From IMG/VR virus record IMGVR_UViG_3300025671_000450, positions 1-25,919 of that record: a stretch of 25,919 bases of DNA. One strand, given 5' to 3'. A model generated the notes under the pieces. The model was not told the origin of the DNA. It did no database searches and saw only the letters and a program-made list of their open reading frames with translations. This document shows positions 2,939 through 25,879 of this stretch, one piece after another; position 1 is the stretch's first letter; every line of letters begins with the position of its first letter. The translations under genes were made by a program, and so were the position numbers. Source of the DNA: a virus.

Positions 2939-3018
2939 TAATTTGCTCCTGTATAGGTGATTGTAGTCATTACATAGTCATTAGAGACAAAAGCACCGCC
3001 TTGTTGCCTGATTGTCAT
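2938..3018 (-). CDS. Micro-ORF, 26 aa, between tailspikes
   Basis: ATG 3018 to TAA 2938, with a good AAGGGG ribosome site 6 nt upstream. The start overlaps the previous micro-ORF's stop (ATGA) and the stop overlaps the second spike's ATG (TAATG). The peptide starts MTIRQQGGAF and ends TTITYTGAN, and it looks like the N-terminus of a longer tail protein cut short. It also carries the Shine-Dalgarno of the second tailspike, so its translation may control that gene. Confidence 0.45.
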   Translation of the reverse strand: MTIRQQGGAFVSNDYVMTTITYTGAN

Positions 3019-3143
3019 TTCTGGCCCCTTTCCCATCCACTGCCAAGATGTTCAACCCAAGCCCAAGATAGCAGCGTAGTTATGCCGCAGGACAGCCGCA
3101 CCGCGTGCCCATCCCAGATGTATGTTCCGCATTTGCTTGTCAT
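3015..3143 (-). CDS. Small ORF, 42 aa, between tailspikes
   Basis: ATG 3143 to TGA 3015, starting 18 nt after the first tailspike's stop. A moderate GGTGGA lies upstream. The peptide is rich in Trp and Gly (YIWDGHAVRLS, LLSWAWVEHLGSGW) and contains two Cys. No family is recognised. The ATGA overlap with the next micro-ORF and the filled gap between two structural genes argue for translation. It could be a small baseplate or adaptor peptide or a remnant. Confidence 0.45.
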   Translation of the reverse strand: MTSKCGTYIWDGHAVRLSCGITTLLSWAWVEHLGSGWERGQK

Positions 3144-3161
3144 ATTGATGCTTCCACCATG

Positions 3162-15895: not shown

Positions 15896-15924
15896 TTCCG
15901 ATTCTCCTTCAAGGAAGTTGCGGT

Positions 15925-15936
15925 TGATTGCAATCA
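15925..15936. promoter_or_regulatory. 12-bp perfect palindrome in capsid leader
   Basis: TGATTGCAATCA reads the same on both strands. It lies about 30 bp upstream of the capsid start, in a non-coding leader between a terminator and the gene. It could be an operator or a small RNA stem. No binding protein is known from this window. Confidence 0.4.
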
Positions 15937-15964
15937 GTTGTCCGCGGTGCGGGCCAATCGCTTA

Positions 15965-15984
15965 GACAAGGTAGCGCTCTTGTC
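15965..15984. promoter_or_regulatory. Inverted repeat in capsid leader
   Basis: GACAAG and CTTGTC (6 bp arms) flank an 8-nt loop that itself contains AGCGCT. It sits midway between the strong terminator and the capsid gene. With the palindrome at 15925-15936 it makes this 170-bp leader the most structured spacer in the late region. I could not identify a convincing -35/-10 promoter by eye. Confidence 0.35.
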
Positions 15985-16037
15985 TCCAAGCGTTTTTGAC
16001 GGGCCGGTGGGTTATCCGCTTTTGCACATATACGATT

Positions 16038-16063
16038 AAAAAGCCCGGCTGTAAAGCCGGGCT
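16038..16063 (-). terminator. Strong intrinsic terminator between scaffold and capsid genes
   Basis: On the minus strand a perfect 9-bp GC-rich stem (AGCCCGGCT / AGCCGGGCT) with a TTAC loop is followed by a short T run (the last stem T plus four more). It begins 4 bp after the scaffold stop codon. This is a textbook rho-independent terminator for leftward transcription. The capsid genes downstream need read-through, antitermination or their own promoter. Confidence 0.9.
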
Positions 16064-16067
16064 GCAA

Positions 16068-18692: not shown

Positions 18693-18914
18693 CTACTTCT
18701 TCGATCTGTTGCGGCTCATCGACATGACGACCAAATTGCGTCGAGAGTTATCGCGGGGGTTGCCGTTCTTGTGGTCAACATCCTTCCCATCGCCTTTCTT
18801 CACAGAGCCATTCGCCATCATCTTGCGGCGAGCCGCATTCCGCATGGCCCTGTTTTTCTTCTGCTCTGGGCTGCTGTGGTAGGTGTCGTATTCGTGCTTG
18901 TAGTCGCGCGCCAT
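18693..18914 (-). CDS. Small HNH-like protein
   Basis: 73 aa, very basic. The C-terminal part DVDHKNGNPRDNSRRNLVV (45-63) followed by SRNRSKK is the core of an HNH_3-type motif (DH, NGN, DN, NL). The N-terminus (ARDYKHEYDTYHSSPEQKK) is typical of short phage proteins of this group found near the portal. HNH proteins beside packaging genes assist terminase in some phages. At this length it may be a minimal nickase or only a DNA-binding relic. The gene starts 2 bp after the previous stop. Confidence 0.75.
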   Translation of the reverse strand: MARDYKHEYDTYHSSPEQKKNRAMRNAARRKMMANGSVKKGDGKDVDHKNGNPRDNSRRNLVVMSMSRNRSKK

Positions 18915-19189: not shown

Positions 19190-19330
19190 CTACTTCATAT
19201 CCTTCGGCTTAGGCTTGCCGGCCTTGCGCATGGCAATCGCCACCGCTTGTTTCATGGGCCGGCCCTCCGCCATCAGCATCTTAATATTTTTGCCGACGAC
19301 CTTGTCGCTCTTGCCCTTTTGCAGCGGCAT
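19190..19330 (-). CDS. DUF6496-like small basic protein (46 aa)
   Basis: 46 aa from ATG 19330 to TAG 19190. The sequence MPLQKGKSDKVVGKNIKML, then EGRPMKQAVAIAMRKAGK, matches the short DUF6496-type phage proteins (KGxSxKxVxxNIKxLxxEGRPxKQAVAIAxxxAG). It overlaps the upstream stop by one base (TGATG) and abuts the next gene's TTG. The function is unknown; it is Lys-rich and probably binds nucleic acid or the head interior. Confidence 0.8.
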   Translation of the reverse strand: MPLQKGKSDKVVGKNIKMLMAEGRPMKQAVAIAMRKAGKPKPKDMK

Positions 19331-20269: not shown

Positions 20270-20306
20270 GGCCGCTACGCTATATCCCCTGCGTAGCGGC
20301 CTTTTT
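20270..20306 (+). terminator. Perfect 11-bp stem with plus-strand T run at primase 3' end
   Basis: GGCCGCTACGC (20270-20280) pairs perfectly with GCGTAGCGGCC (20291-20301) around a 10-nt loop. TTTTT follows on the plus strand (20302-20306). As a terminator it faces rightward, against all visible genes. On the minus strand the same hairpin spans the primase stop codon without a U tail, where it could protect or process the mRNA end. Confidence 0.75.
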
Positions 20307-22121
20307 CTGCCCAATCCACACCTTGCCATCGGCGATCTCGACAAGCCCGCGCGCCTGTAGCCGCTGGCGTGCGCTGCCTCGCGACGATTTCGGCGTGTCC
20401 GGGAAATCTTGCCCATGTTGCTGCGCCCAAGCAGAATGCAAAATATGGTCCTGGCCAGCACGCGCAATAGCTTTGGTCAGCGAGGAAAGCGCGTCACGCT
20501 GCGTAGGCGATAGCCCATCCCGCTCTTCTTCCTCGTGAGGCACCAGCACGACGCTACTGTCGCTGATCAGCCCAATCGACTCAAAGCGGAACTTGTGATC
20601 GGCCACCGGCTCAGCATCCTTTTGCTTCTCAATCTTGATCTCTGATATGCGCTGGCCATCGTCGCCTTCGAGCGGGTTCATAAGGATGCTGGTATCAATG
20701 CCGCCCAGCAGCGCATTCGATCCGCGCAAGCCGCGCGTTACATCTTTGCCGCTGTGGTGTACTGCCAAGAGCGCGCAATTAAACCGCTTGCGGATGGCGT
20801 CGCAGGCGTCAACGAATAGCCCCATGTCAGTGCTGCTGTTCTCATCTCCGCCAAGCAATGCGCGGGCAACTGTGTCCACGACAATCATAACCGGGCTCTG
20901 CTGCATCGACGCCGCCGTATCGATGAGCTTGACGATGTCGGCGGCCTCGCGGAACTTTACCGCAGCCGGCAGCAGGTAGAACGGCGCGCCATTATGCACG
21001 CCATTGAACGCCTCCCACGCCTTTATGCGCTTGCCCATGCCACCAACGCCCTCGCCGGCTATGTAGATCACTGGGCCGTGCGCTACGACGCGCCCGTTGA
21101 ACGGCTTGCCGTATGCGACACACAGCGCCATATCGAGTGCAAGGAAGGACTTCCCTGCACCTGGTGGGCCGTACAGCGCGGCTAAGCCATGGCGCGGCAG
21201 GTAACCCTCGACCAGCCATTCAGCCGGCGGCATGTTGCGCAGTTCCGACAGCGACAGAAGCTGGAACGTGTCTGGTGGCGTCTGGTCGCTGACTACCACC
21301 GTACCGCGTATTGGCTGGAGCAGCTTGATGAGGGCGAGCAGGTCGTCGCGGGTGCCGCCAGCCTTGATCCAATCGACAATGTCACCCTTCGGCCCCAGGT
21401 CTGGCAGCGACAATATCCCGACCTTGCGGGCGACCGGATACAGTTCATTGGCGACCTTGTTCGCGTGGTTCTGCCCTGCCTCATCGTTGTCAGGAATAAT
21501 GACAATGGTGCGGTCGGTGAACCAATGGTTCAGGTCTGGCTTCCAGTTCCCCGCGCCGCCATGATTGGTCGTGGACAACAGGCCCAGCTTTGCCACTGCG
21601 TCGGCGCACTTCTCTCCCTCGACCACAATTATCGTGTCGCGCGGGTTCGTAACAATCGCCGGCAGATTGTATGGCAGAGGCGTAACATCCTTCATCACGC
21701 CTGGGTAAGAGCGCAACTCCCCATCGACTTCGCGCCATTGCTGAAACCGCTTCGATCCATCGGAGCGTTCGCGCCGCTTAACCTGATATTGCCGGATGCC
21801 GTACTGGTCGAAATACTCATATATCGCTGTTGTGAACTCGAACGGCTGGACGCTCGCATGTTCCTCGCGAGGAAGGCCGAAGACGCTCTCCAGCACCTCA
21901 GAGACCCGCACATTCGGGCCTTCCTGCTGCTGGATGACCCAAGATACGCCGCCACCAGCCCCCATCTCAAAATCATAGAAGCCGCCGCTGGCCTTGTCCA
22001 AAGACTTGCTGCCACTCGCGCCCCAGCGGATTTCTTCCCGCGTCTCTCTAGTGCGCTTCCCGTAGTAATGATCGCCGACCTCAGCAGCAATCTGAACCAT
22101 TTTAGCGTTTATTTGTGCCAT
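20280..22121 (-). CDS. Primase-helicase: TOPRIM plus RepA-type AAA ATPase
   Basis: 613 aa. Residues 1-80 resemble the start of phage primases (GGFYDFEMGAGGGVSWVI) but have no cysteines, so there is no zinc finger. TOPRIM motifs are IIVVEGEKCADAV (164-176) and IIPDNDEAG (208-216). The C-terminal ATPase has Walker A GPPGAGKS (318-325), Walker B VMIVVDTVAR (411-420) and the RepA/AAA_25 signature LLAVHHSGKD (451-460). A winged-helix-like tail follows (540-600). It probably primes and unwinds DNA at the phage fork, working with the SSB-like protein coded just upstream. The start is supported by AGGAGG with 6 nt spacing. Confidence 0.88.
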   Translation of the reverse strand: MAQINAKMVQIAAEVGDHYYGKRTRETREEIRWGASGSKSLDKASGGFYDFEMGAGGGVSWVIQQQEGPNVRVSEVLESVFGLPREEHASVQPFEFTTAIYEYFDQYGIRQYQVKRRERSDGSKRFQQWREVDGELRSYPGVMKDVTPLPYNLPAIVTNPRDTIIVVEGEKCADAVAKLGLLSTTNHGGAGNWKPDLNHWFTDRTIVIIPDNDEAGQNHANKVANELYPVARKVGILSLPDLGPKGDIVDWIKAGGTRDDLLALIKLLQPIRGTVVVSDQTPPDTFQLLSLSELRNMPPAEWLVEGYLPRHGLAALYGPPGAGKSFLALDMALCVAYGKPFNGRVVAHGPVIYIAGEGVGGMGKRIKAWEAFNGVHNGAPFYLLPAAVKFREAADIVKLIDTAASMQQSPVMIVVDTVARALLGGDENSSTDMGLFVDACDAIRKRFNCALLAVHHSGKDVTRGLRGSNALLGGIDTSILMNPLEGDDGQRISEIKIEKQKDAEPVADHKFRFESIGLISDSSVVLVPHEEEERDGLSPTQRDALSSLTKAIARAGQDHILHSAWAQQHGQDFPDTPKSSRGSARQRLQARGLVEIADGKVWIGQKKAATQGI

Positions 22122-22139
22122 GCTTTTCCTCCTGAAAGT

Positions 22140-22159
22140 GGCGGAGCCGAAGCCCCGCC
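22140..22159 (-). promoter_or_regulatory. UUCG-capped hairpin between SSB-like and primase genes
   Basis: On the minus strand GGCGGGGC and GCTCCGCC pair (8 bp, one G-U) with a TTCG tetraloop. It falls in the 46-bp spacer between two genes, followed by only ACTTTC and then the primase ribosome site. It is more likely an mRNA-stability or weak pausing element than a full terminator. Confidence 0.6.
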
Positions 22160-22167
22160 GTTATCAA

Positions 22168-22761
22168 CTAGAACAGATCGTCTTCCTGCGCAGATGGTGC
22201 CGCTGGTTCCGCAGCCGCCCCACCCATGTCTGCTGGACGATCTTCCCAACCGGCAATGTTCCACTTGGGAACGCGGAAACGCTGATCGCCCTGCGGTGTC
22301 GGGATTTCAATCACGCTGGTGCCGGTGATCGCCACTCTCGGCACCTTACCAGCGTGCTTCCCGCGCTCCGCCATGTAGACATCATGCAGCTTGTCCACAG
22401 CGTTGCGAACCGTGGCAGCGCCGGATGCAAATTCGCGGACGCCTAACTCCTCGCTCCATAGACGCAAGCGGAATACTGGGCGATGATCGTCGCTCGGCTT
22501 GTCGGGCATAGCCCCGCCCAGCTTGACCACCGCAAAGTCCGGCACGCCCATAAACGACGCCCAGCCCACCTCGATGTTCTCGAAGTCCATCAGCACTTCA
22601 AACGGAACGTCCAAGTCATCGTAACGCTTATCCCATTCGCCACTCGCGGTCTGGAAGCGCACCTGCTTGCTGAACACGCCTGCGCGAGCATCATACTTGA
22701 TGATCTGCATGAACTCGCGGGTGGACTGACCACCACCAGACCCTGGGAAACCTAAAGCCAT
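22168..22761 (-). CDS. SSB-like protein with acidic C-terminal tip
   Basis: 197 aa from ATG 22761, chosen because GGAG lies 8 nt upstream. A longer frame from 22881 would run 56 bp into the terminase gene. The core is beta-rich (IIKYDARAGVFSKQVRFQTA, 20-39; VPFEVLMDFENIEVGWASF; FAVVKLGGAMPDKPSDDHRP; FRLRLWSEELG). A disordered Ala/Pro linker leads to the end AQEDDLF. A hydrophobic residue after an acidic run at the very end is the protein-docking tip of SSB proteins. Position between terminase and primase-helicase agrees with single-stranded DNA binding. I do not recognise a specific family, so the role is inferred. Confidence 0.6.
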   Translation of the reverse strand: MALGFPGSGGGQSTREFMQIIKYDARAGVFSKQVRFQTASGEWDKRYDDLDVPFEVLMDFENIEVGWASFMGVPDFAVVKLGGAMPDKPSDDHRPVFRLRLWSEELGVREFASGAATVRNAVDKLHDVYMAERGKHAGKVPRVAITGTSVIEIPTPQGDQRFRVPKWNIAGWEDRPADMGGAAAEPAAPSAQEDDLF

Positions 22762-22825
22762 CTCTGGCACTCCTTCACTATCGGCAGAATCGCCGGCTCC
22801 TAACAACGCACTATGCGCTGGTAGC

Positions 22826-24376
22826 TCAGAAAACGCTGAAATCCATCTTCGCAACCGCCTGCTGAAACATCGGCTTGCCATTCGGGTTTCGCGTTAATCT
22901 CCTGTGCTCACCGCCACCCAGCATCAGGTAGCCGTAAGCGTCGCCAACGTGACTGTGCTCGTTCTTATTCGGCGCGTCACGAAAGCGCTCTTGCCCGCCG
23001 CCCATCGCGACGCGCTTAAAATGATATCCGCCGGACAACGACTTGCGTGTCCGAAAGCAATCCTTAGACACCAGAAGGCCGGGGCGTCCGTCGATCAACC
23101 TGTTCATCGGCGCAGCACCAGCTTCGCGGCGCACCATAAAATCGTTGCTGACCGTCGGCTGCGCTCGCAGCCCATAGGTGCGCAAATGGTCAAACGCTGT
23201 GACCTCAAATATCTCGTCCCGCTTGCCGCCAGCCGGGTCACCCCAGATGAACACCTCATGCTTAGGGAACTTGGTCTGGATGTCCGCCATCAGGTGATGC
23301 GTAAAGCGCTCCAGGCCCATGTCAAACGCCACCAGTTCATGCACAATATGCCAGCGCCCATTCTGCATCTTCTGGCCAAATACGGCGGCTGGGGTCAAGC
23401 CAAAGTCCAGCCCAATGTGCAGCGGTTGCCCAGGCTCAATCTCCAAATCAGCCGACATCAAACTGTCGCTGAACTCCGGCCATACCGGCTTCCCATCCTG
23501 CACATAAACATACTGCGCGCCCGCATAACACTGTATCCAGTCAAGCGTCTTACCAGCCAGTTGCTGCTCGTAATACCCGCGCGGCAAATTGTTGACGTTC
23601 TCCGCGGCATCATTCTCAATCCACCACTTGCCGGCGGCAAAGATCGCGTTGTCGTGCTCCTTCGTACCCTCAACAACGCCGCCAGGCTGCTTGTAGAAAT
23701 TCCAAGGATAGCGCCCGCGCACCTTGTTCTTCTCAGCCAAGCTGGGCCACCAATGATCGCTGTCCATCGGGTTGGTGCTCATCCACACCCCACGCCATGT
23801 GCAGCCGCCGTTGCGCTTGGTCGGGAAGCGACCTACGCGGCTGGTCAGGCCATCGACAACAGCCTTCGGCAACTCCCGCGCCTCATCGATAAACCCGCCA
23901 GTTAACTCAAGCGACAACAGTTTCCGCACGTCGCGGGGCTGGTCGAGCGCCAAGAAGATCACTTCGCAATCGACGCCGGGAACGCCGTCGCGCGGCGGCA
24001 ACTGAATGTGGTGCGTGATGGGTGGTGACCAGCGCATCGCACCCCACTCATGCTCAGGGAATAACTCCTGCCACGTCTTGATCGTCGTGGTGCGTAGCTC
24101 AGGATAGCTGTTCCTGATGACCGCAAACCTCGTGTAACGCACATTGTCTACCGGCGACGGCTCCTGCTTAACAGCACGCAGCATCACTTCAGCAAGGCTC
24201 GCATACGTCTTACCGCTGCCGACCGGCCCCATCAGCCCGCGCACAAACGCATCGTCACTCAAGAACTTCCAGACCGTCGGGCTCGCGCTAAAGTCGAGGT
24301 TGAGACCCGCCAGTCCAGTCTCCTTGGCACGACGCCTGCGTGGGCTGCGGTCAGTCGCTCGCGGTGACCGGCTCAT
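22826..24376 (-). CDS. terL: Terminase large subunit
   Basis: 516 aa DNA-packaging motor. ATPase domain: Walker A GPVGSGKT (50-57), Walker B ending FIDEARE (162-168, D164/E165) and coupling motif STNP (200-203). Nuclease domain: IGLDFGLTPAAV (321-332, D324), IWGDPAGG (377-384, D380) and HVGDAYGY (476-483, D479) supply the three acidic metal-binding residues. All catalytic elements are present, so it should be active. It starts with ATG directly after the stop of the small subunit gene (TAGATG). An Arg/Ser-rich N-terminus (1-20) precedes the ATPase. It cuts concatemers and pumps DNA through the portal. Confidence 0.96.
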   Translation of the reverse strand: MSRSPRATDRSPRRRRAKETGLAGLNLDFSASPTVWKFLSDDAFVRGLMGPVGSGKTYASLAEVMLRAVKQEPSPVDNVRYTRFAVIRNSYPELRTTTIKTWQELFPEHEWGAMRWSPPITHHIQLPPRDGVPGVDCEVIFLALDQPRDVRKLLSLELTGGFIDEARELPKAVVDGLTSRVGRFPTKRNGGCTWRGVWMSTNPMDSDHWWPSLAEKNKVRGRYPWNFYKQPGGVVEGTKEHDNAIFAAGKWWIENDAAENVNNLPRGYYEQQLAGKTLDWIQCYAGAQYVYVQDGKPVWPEFSDSLMSADLEIEPGQPLHIGLDFGLTPAAVFGQKMQNGRWHIVHELVAFDMGLERFTHHLMADIQTKFPKHEVFIWGDPAGGKRDEIFEVTAFDHLRTYGLRAQPTVSNDFMVRREAGAAPMNRLIDGRPGLLVSKDCFRTRKSLSGGYHFKRVAMGGGQERFRDAPNKNEHSHVGDAYGYLMLGGGEHRRLTRNPNGKPMFQQAVAKMDFSVF

Positions 24377-24805
24377 CTACTTCTCCCCCGCGGGGGTAGC
24401 GCCATCTTCTTCGTCGCCATCATCGTCTACCACCTCATACGTCGTCGTTTTCGGCCCGGTAATGTTGATGCCAATCATGCTGGGCCGCATGTTGTCTTGT
24501 TGCGGCTCCAACAACCCATGATGCTTCGCAAGGATGCGCGAGGCCGAAATCTTGTCATGCATCTCGACCTCGATCTGCGACCCCTCGCGTGTCGGCGTGA
24601 TCTTGACCTTCTTGATCGACTTGCGCGCACCTGCGCTCAGCGATGCCGATGGCTTCAACTGCACGCTGCCGTCAGCCTGCCACGTCAGCACGTCCGTGAT
24701 CTCAGACGCGGCGATGGCCTCTAGCTCCGCTAGAACCGCCTGCTTCCGCCCGTCATCCTGCGTGGCCAGCGTGGCACGCGCCTGCCTAATCGACCTGCGT
24801 GGCAC
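24377..24805 (-). CDS. terS: Terminase small subunit, lacking the usual N-terminal HTH
   Basis: 142 aa from GTG 24805, preferred because GGAGG lies 5 nt upstream; TTG at 24817 would add four residues. The body SEITDVLTWQADGSVQLKPS, then LSAGARKSIKKVKITPTREG and IEVEMHDKISASRILAKHHG, matches the C-terminal half of Terminase_2-type small subunits. It ends with an acidic tail (VVDDDGDEEDG). The usual N-terminal 50-60 aa helix-turn-helix that binds the packaging site is absent, and an in-frame stop just upstream rules out a longer frame. It overlaps the DUF6378-like gene by 20 bp and abuts the large subunit. It should regulate the large subunit; DNA recognition may lie elsewhere. Confidence 0.8.
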   Translation of the reverse strand: MPRRSIRQARATLATQDDGRKQAVLAELEAIAASEITDVLTWQADGSVQLKPSASLSAGARKSIKKVKITPTREGSQIEVEMHDKISASRILAKHHGLLEPQQDNMRPSMIGINITGPKTTTYEVVDDDGDEEDGATPAGEK

Positions 24806-25058
24806 AGGCACCTCCAATTGCTGCGTAGTTGATCATATCGACCCAGCTATCCCAATGCTCCGGCTGATGCGACAGGCGCGCCATCTTCAGCCCAGCCATG
24901 CAAAGCGCGACCTGATGCGCCTGCACTTCGACGCCGAGGATGGCGGTCCAGATGATCGAAATGCGCTCGTGCATCAGATATGCGTCGCCGTATTCGCCTG
25001 CGCGCTTGCCGAAAATTTCCTGGGCGTCCGCTATAAACTCTTCTGGCGCTGTTGGCAT
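24786..25058 (-). CDS. DUF6378-like phage protein
   Basis: 90 aa from ATG 25058, with AAGGA just upstream. AQEIFGKRAGEYGDAYLMHE (13-32), then RISIIWTAILGVEVQAHQVA and LKMARLSHQPEHWDSWVDM match the helical DUF6378 family found in many phages (pattern HGDxxxxHExIAxxWSAYLG...DVALxMxxLKxAR...DxxxDxxGYAA). The family may be related to all-alpha NTP pyrophosphohydrolases, but this is uncertain. A longer frame to 25301 would add a Pro/Gly/Cys-rich stretch read from non-coding DNA and overlap the HTH gene, so I reject it. It is probably a nucleotide-related or regulatory factor. Confidence 0.75.
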   Translation of the reverse strand: MPTAPEEFIADAQEIFGKRAGEYGDAYLMHERISIIWTAILGVEVQAHQVALCMAGLKMARLSHQPEHWDSWVDMINYAAIGGACATQVD

Positions 25059-25237
25059 GTCCTTATCGTCCTCTGTGGAAAGTTGCGAAAATTTTGCGGG
25101 GTACCCCCCATAGGTACAGGCCAGGGGTGGGGGGCAAAGGGTGCCGGTTTCGGCGCTGGCGGGCGGGCATGCCCTGCCGGGCCGGCACCATTCGACACGG
25201 ATTGCCGGCCCGTACATGGGCAAACGTCCGTTTGCGG
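25059..25237. other. Palindrome-rich non-coding region (candidate origin, operator or packaging site)
   Basis: This 179-bp stretch is the longest structured spacer. It has a perfect 10-bp palindrome GGGGTACCCC (25098-25107) and AAAATTTT (25088-25095). A nested structure has GTGCCGG (25141-25147) paired with CCGGCAC (25182-25188) around the palindrome GGGCATGCCC. The inverted repeat GCAAACG-TC-CGTTTGC (25220-25235) ends 2 bp from the stop of the winged-helix gene. None has a T run, so they are not ordinary terminators. Position beside a replication-type DNA-binding gene and the terminase genes makes an origin, operator or packaging site plausible. Confidence 0.55.
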
Positions 25238-25879
25238 TCATGAACAGGACACCTCCCCTATGGCTGGTACGCCGCGCCTGGCCGCAAGCGCCGCTTTGCA
25301 TGCCGCATAGGCCGCTCTGCGCATCGTCTCAGGCGTAACGCCATCCGCTGCATGCTGATGGGCAGAGCGGATCACGTTGGCGATGACGACGGTTTGCCCC
25401 GTCGCCTCCTGGACGCCGCGCGCGTAAGCGTGCGCCAGCGAGAGAGCGAGAGAGTGTTCAGCGTCGCCTGCGCCCTTTGCAATCCCATTCGTTCTGCGCT
25501 CACTATCATCGTCTATCATCTCGGCGCGCGGCATTGGCAGATGTATATCTTCAAGCCGTGGCATTGGTTCGTCGCCCGTCCACAGCACTTGATAACGGTT
25601 GATGCGCCATCCGCTCGCGGCATAGTCTTTGCTGCGGAGTTGGCGGACATAGCCCAGCGCCTTTAGCTTTTTGATCGCGTTGTTGACACTCAGGCGCACC
25701 GCATAGCCGCTTGCATTGGCCAGCGTCTCCATCGTCGGCCAGCAAACACCGGCGCTATTAGTATATATGCAGAGCGCGCCCAGCACTCGCAATTCGGTTA
25801 TGCCCAACCGCTGGTCACTAGGCGCACGGCTAGGCATGATCGAAAAGCGGCGCGGCGGATCAAAAGGGGAGCTCGTCAT
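25238..25879 (-). CDS. Winged-helix replication-type DNA-binding protein
   Basis: 213 aa. Residues 25-97 form a winged helix of the HTH_36/phage replication type: LGITELRVLGALCIYTNSAG, then VCWPTMETLANASGYAVRLS (recognition region) and NAIKKLKALGYVRQL, then a basic wing with WRINRYQVLW. The C-terminal half is helical and Ala-rich (HAYARGVQEATGQTVVIANV, then RRAAYAACKAALAARRG). Such proteins bind origins or act as regulators in phage replication modules. The start is well supported by GAGGAGG 5 nt before ATG. It overlaps the end of an upstream gene by 20 bp. It is an origin-binding or regulatory protein, which of the two is not decidable here. Confidence 0.75.
   Translation of the reverse strand: MTSSPFDPPRRFSIMPSRAPSDQRLGITELRVLGALCIYTNSAGVCWPTMETLANASGYAVRLSVNNAIKKLKALGYVRQLRSKDYAASGWRINRYQVLWTGDEPMPRLEDIHLPMPRAEMIDDDSERRTNGIAKGAGDAEHSLALSLAHAYARGVQEATGQTVVIANVIRSAHQHAADGVTPETMRRAAYAACKAALAARRGVPAIGEVSCS

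Follow-up and report, generated by a model that had tools for sequence, protein, structure and literature searches.

What is the role of the noncoding DNA that lies between a putative replication gene and the terminase genes of this phage? The window, meaning the whole 25,919-base stretch of an uncultured virus record analyzed here, is a podovirus-like fragment in which all genes with a clear function lie on the minus strand. In mRNA order, a winged-helix (HTH_36) gene is followed by the spacer at 25059-25237, a DUF6378 gene, the genes for the terminase small (TerS) and large (TerL) subunits, and then portal, coat, and tail genes. A preliminary description of the locus had placed the spacer beside a winged-helix gene and the terminase genes, as the following assignments bear out, and had proposed that the spacer is a replication origin, an autoregulatory operator, or a packaging site.

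25238..25879, minus strand: putative O-like replication initiator gene, encoding a 213-aa HTH_36 winged-helix protein and lying just upstream of the element (Pfam HTH_36, E 3.7e-9)
24786..25058, minus strand: DUF6378 gene (Pfam DUF6378, E 2e-22)
24377..24817, minus strand: TerS gene (Pfam Terminase_2, E 1.1e-8)
22826..24376, minus strand: TerL gene (PHROG 2, E 1.3e-23)

Elsewhere in the window, SSB-like and primase-helicase genes occupy 20280-22881, and a small HNH endonuclease gene (18693-18914) lies directly ahead of the portal gene; HNH proteins have a packaging role in some cos phages. The DUF6378 gene of the window phage has two candidate starts, either an ATG at 25241 (ATGA overlap, good ribosome-binding site) or position 25058. 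Its homologues in Gordonia phages (H1, H9, H13, H15, and H16) are labelled phosphofructokinase in several RefSeq phage records, a name that looks unsupported given so short a domain.

The case for function had first been made from palindromes, and all of those named in the preliminary description are present in the spacer where it placed them. Besides GCAAACG/CGTTTGC, treated below, the sequences it singled out are these.

25088-25095: palindrome AAAATTTT
25098-25107: palindrome GGGGTACCCC
25124-25134: G-rich run GGGGTGGGGGG
25140..25189: inverted repeat GGTGCCGG (25140-25147) and CCGGCACC (25182-25189) around GGGCATGCCC (25165-25174), lineage-specific

By count, however, these sequences are just mildly unusual for the composition of the spacer. 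Three perfect palindromes of at least 8 bp occur where 1.2 would be expected (P 0.11), and the 7-bp inverted repeats number four where 1.1 would be (P 0.047). Equally high counts are reached in about 1% of the other 179-bp windows of the record. The accompanying statement that the rest of the window has almost no spacers was overstated. Four others appear on the same gene list, at 1292-1489 (198 bp), 2939-3161 (223 bp), 15896-16067 (172 bp), and 19190-19329 (140 bp), and retention of the DNA is therefore a weak argument for function when taken alone. Strong evidence for function comes from conservation in relatives rather than from retention of the spacer.

Conservation of the palindromes among relatives was the test by which the preliminary description had proposed to be judged, and its outcome was divided. 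In three close relatives the spacer has its full 179 bp and no indels, and in two of them (L004 and L015) GGGGTACCCC is already broken. Both GGGGTACCCC and the GTGCCGG/GGGCATGCCC structure are confined to the window phage and its closest relatives. No common structure was found in the family spacers, and the GGTGCCGG/CCGGCACC repeat around GGGCATGCCC probably lies outside the conserved function. In contrast, GCAAACG/CGTTTGC and the combination of AAAATTTT with the G-run are found throughout the family. The claim that the spacer DNA is functional is thus upheld by the family-wide conservation of two elements, here called box A and box B, and sequence comparison leads us to regard 25059-25237 as a real, noncoding, functional site.

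25220..25235, minus strand: box A, a 16-bp dyad GCAAACG-GA-CGTTTGC (GCAAACGGACGTTTGC) right behind the initiator stop
25212..25216, minus strand: TGTAC, which often follows box A at near-constant spacing in the family, as judged by eye in aligned spacers
25088..25142, minus strand: box B as a whole (about 55 bp), made up of a C-rich arm, a variable interior, a G-tract, and an AT box
25124..25142, minus strand: left arm of box B, ACCCTTTGCCCCCCACCCC (a G-run on the plus strand), strongly conserved in at least about 220 loci
25110..25123, minus strand: interior of box B, variable in sequence and nearly fixed in length
25104..25109, minus strand: G-tract of box B, GGGGGG, replaced by other sequence in a second subtype
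25088..25095, minus strand: AT box of box B, AAAATTTT, at a nearly fixed distance from the left arm

Altered forms of box A (GCAAACGTTGGTTTGT, GCATACGGACGTTTGC, and CCAGACGAACGTATGG) occur near the initiator stop in most of the family. At least 11 of the 14 consensus positions were matched in 56% of 62 nonredundant family regions versus 1% of shuffles, a contrast that is somewhat flattered because the consensus came from those same spacers. Each genome scanned has at most one strong copy, and no second one was found in the window or in any of those genomes.

Read in the minus-strand sense, box B consists of ACCCyTTGCCCCCCrCCCC, 12-15 variable bases, TATGGGGG, about 8 bases, and AAAATTTT, and, counting from the TTG, the AT box ends at a distance of 50 or 51 in 122 of the 145 elements measured. 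A more distant relative with a DUF6378 protein 56% identical to that of the window phage (L005) keeps just ACCCCTTGCCCCCC-CCCC, TATGGGGG, and AAAATTTT, with the same spacing. A pattern scan recovered 55 viral contigs, and the element found was mostly 46-48 bp long though 32-60 bp were permitted. Homologues of window-phage genes adjoin box B in all but one of these contigs; the exception (L030), which has no such homologues beside the match, was put down to chance. With scans for half of the element the set grew to at least about 220 contigs. Pattern and profile searches may miss divergent elements. A second subtype was also seen (L172, L177, L182-L184, L187, L201, and others), in which the C-rich left arm is kept and CAGTCCCCCAC..AAACTATTTT replaces the G-tract arm.

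Box B appears to be a single-copy element of this phage family. When the left arm was searched with two mismatches allowed, 16 of 17 long genomes gave exactly one match; the remaining genome gave none, and neither did the backward-read controls. Among 84,980 bacterial and archaeal species genomes there were 18 pattern matches, none of which had the remaining element behind an initiator gene, and these matches are due to chance. BLAST of the element against annotated phages and plasmids returned nothing useful, and no earlier description of it was found in the open-access literature. Among isolate records covered in full for BcepC6B, HTVC010P, and MEP301 and in part for others, Methylophilales phage MEP301 is the sole one in which box B was found after a homologue of the initiator gene; the element there follows gp55 (L253:857-921, nhmmer E 1.4e-5). 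The protein encoded by gp55 is an initiator homologue (profile E 3e-23). The MEP301 spacer is a lower-GC version of that in the window, with box A reduced by eye to a half-site, and the element is unannotated in the record. According to its published description, the MEP301 genome gave a circular assembly and had no gene identified as encoding a DNA polymerase (PMC8024684). A box B profile search gave no match in the AT-rich pelagiphage HTVC010P; shortly upstream of its terminase genes, GACCCCTGGCTACCCCCCAC (L259, 565-590) resembles the left arm of box B by eye.

Which neighboring gene does the element belong to? In 199 of the 199 box B loci with enough upstream DNA, the initiator profile detects an HTH_36 homologue whose own end is no more than 327 nt from that of the element, on its upstream side, and none of these loci has box B without the initiator gene; 27 further loci were excluded from the count, being cut off too near the element. 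The reverse test gave the same answer. Alignment of the initiator protein alone fetched 80 loci, 74 of them with at least 300 nt behind the gene, and box B was found 60-112 nt after the initiator stop in all 74 versus none of the 74 reversed control sequences. Since many of the 80 contigs are shared with the pattern scans, this test checks completeness and is not a wholly new sample.

The surrounding genes are more mobile than this pairing. The DUF6378 gene does not always stand behind box B, and the downstream genes vary. The SSB-like and primase-helicase genes occupy three positions relative to the initiator, box B, and the terminases (L039, L042, L068, L086, and L157; L032, L035, and L065). 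The primase-helicase block precedes the initiator in 88 loci, falls between box B and TerS in 5, and follows TerL in 6, and box B remains behind the initiator at every one of these positions. From the initiator stop to the end of box B there are 88-327 nt, and from box B to TerS 15-4657 nt. The right arm of box B also tracks initiator divergence (partial rank correlations of 0.39-0.52) more closely than that of TerS and TerL (0.04-0.46), a comparison confounded by the closeness of box B to the initiator; the interior varies almost freely. Box B is missing from all 80 loci of the sister TerL group (Hodr type), as are a close initiator homologue and a recognizable TerS, and because the three are missing together their absence does not separate replication from packaging. 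The full record of Burkholderia phage BcepC6B, which encodes a related TerL, has neither the initiator nor box B, whereas MEP301 has both.

The protein to which the element is linked appears, from family matches, to be an O-like replication initiator. Pfam HTH_36 and the PHROG replication-initiation families 270 and 391 were matched by all 17 aligned initiator homologues. The AlphaFold model of the initiator, with a mean pLDDT of 83, combines a MarR-like winged helix with a helical domain at the C terminus; solved structures match it weakly, at E 0.03 or worse.

The reading that we favor, with confidence that is about evenly balanced, is that the spacer is a cis-acting, initiator-linked replication origin of the adjacent O-like initiator. 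A dimer of the winged-helix protein would bind the single dyad of box A. Box B, with its conserved C/G-tract arm and the short AT box that follows, would be where the duplex opens, and a helicase, either the phage primase-helicase or that of the host, would be loaded there. The binding of box A by the initiator, the melting of the AT box, and the origin activity are inferred. The linkage in both directions argues for an origin, as does the pairing of presence and absence in MEP301 and BcepC6B. Of the three candidates in the preliminary description, the origin is favored, packaging is its main rival, and an operator is poorly supported. An analysis of GC skew, which that description had named as a check, showed no sign change at the element, and one-way transcription dominates skew in these genomes. 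No iteron array was found, each genome having at most one strong box A. Somewhat more tentatively, at a little less than even confidence, the site may represent an undescribed type of phage origin in a large, almost uncultured podophage lineage. Such an origin would consist of one initiator-bound dyad and a C/G-tract/AT-box element behind the initiator gene, and its G-rich strand could aid opening through a G-rich hybrid or folded form.

Alternatively, box B may be a packaging start recognized by TerS, either pac or a cos site with the interior as cohesive end, in which case its place behind the initiator would merely be a conserved early/late boundary. We consider this possible but unlikely. 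TerS and TerL lie downstream of box B in nearly all loci, fixed arms flanking an interior that varies would be a suitable layout for a cohesive end, and in SPP1 pac and the beginning of the TerS gene overlap (PMC6316719). Moreover, seven contig ends or stretch starts fall inside box B (ends in L002, L089, L099, L129, and L205; starts in L092 and L157). These may, however, be assembly breaks at a variable stretch between conserved arms. Those within box B are spread over different bases, with no one cut point, and the termini of near-complete contigs lie at varied distances from it; the pile-up of contig ends at box B that was looked for as a sign of cos was not seen, sequence collections not being equivalent to virion-end data. 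The circular assembly of MEP301 (PMC8024684) also fits headful packaging better than cos. We prefer an origin over cos or pac because, where other genes intervene, box B keeps its place by the initiator gene and is parted from TerS; a constant link to TerS is usual, though not strictly required, for pac or cos. In addition, no box B was found without the initiator in the 199 loci.

Less probable still is that boxes A and B act as a transcriptional switch or phage-specific promoter through which the HTH protein controls the downstream genes. The element always lies ahead of same-strand genes, a dyad is typical of a dimeric regulator, and the modeled winged helix of the initiator resembles those of MarR regulators. 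Against this, a search of the region for sigma-70-like promoters and terminator-like sites found none, the downstream genes differ by lineage while the element does not, and the family matches of the protein are to initiators. The narrower proposal of an autoregulatory operator fares poorly. Such a site would be expected ahead of the regulator gene, overlapping its promoter, yet box A is found at the 3' end of that gene or beyond it, and neither the window nor any scanned genome yielded a further strong copy.

That box B works as a structured RNA, whether in an early or a late transcript, is very improbable. Pairing between the C-tract and G-tract arms would be possible in the main subtype, but the G-tract is replaced in the second, and box B folded no better than shuffles, with mean z scores of -0.3 (sense) and -0.2 (antisense) over 68 nonredundant elements; the rest of the spacer was also near zero. 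A hairpin or Rfam family was rejected on these scores together with the lack of an Rfam match, and the constraint therefore most likely acts at the level of DNA. We think it equally far-fetched that the spacer encodes the N terminus of the DUF6378 protein, whose reading frame is open from 25241 (with the ATGA overlap with the initiator stop), has the same length in the three close relatives, and is preceded by a good ribosome-binding site, but whose extension has no family match; for the family this was rejected, since the same element stands ahead of unrelated genes and unrelated reading frames follow box B in relatives. An element tied to DUF6378 was likewise rejected, in that actinophage DUF6378 genes lack it and box B also precedes other genes. 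The tblastn matches of the spacer frame in actinophages proved to be low-complexity alignments.

An anonymous spacer is thereby turned into a defined cis-element that can be recognized in hundreds of environmental phage fragments. It orients these genomes, serves as a landmark in their alignment, and points to a protein and a DNA site to test. If the origin reading is correct, the element would define the start of replication in an abundant, hardly cultured podophage group and offer a minimal replicon as a working tool; should it prove to be a packaging site, it would supply a packaging signal for this podophage group.

Among known systems, the proposed origin most invites comparison with those of lambda and SPP1. 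In lambda, O binds an imperfect inverted repeat that adjoins an AT-rich tract (PMC7466680), and the locus described here resembles ori-lambda in its O-like winged-helix initiator, its inverted repeat by an AT-rich stretch, and the linkage of the candidate origin to the initiator gene. It differs in having one dyad and no iteron array, in the long C/G-tract arm of the element, and in the position of box B 60-112 nt behind the initiator stop, whereas ori-lambda lies inside the initiator gene. The origin bound by gp38 in SPP1 includes an AT-rich element (PMC6316719), and oriL and oriR share with the present locus a phage initiator, a linked candidate origin, and an AT-rich unwinding element (PMC6316719), although SPP1 has direct repeats and two origins where there is here one element without repeats. 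Finally, box B is like SPP1 pac and cos sites in being a noncoding or gene-edge element near the terminase genes, but unlike them it is tied to the initiator gene, up to several kilobases from TerS.
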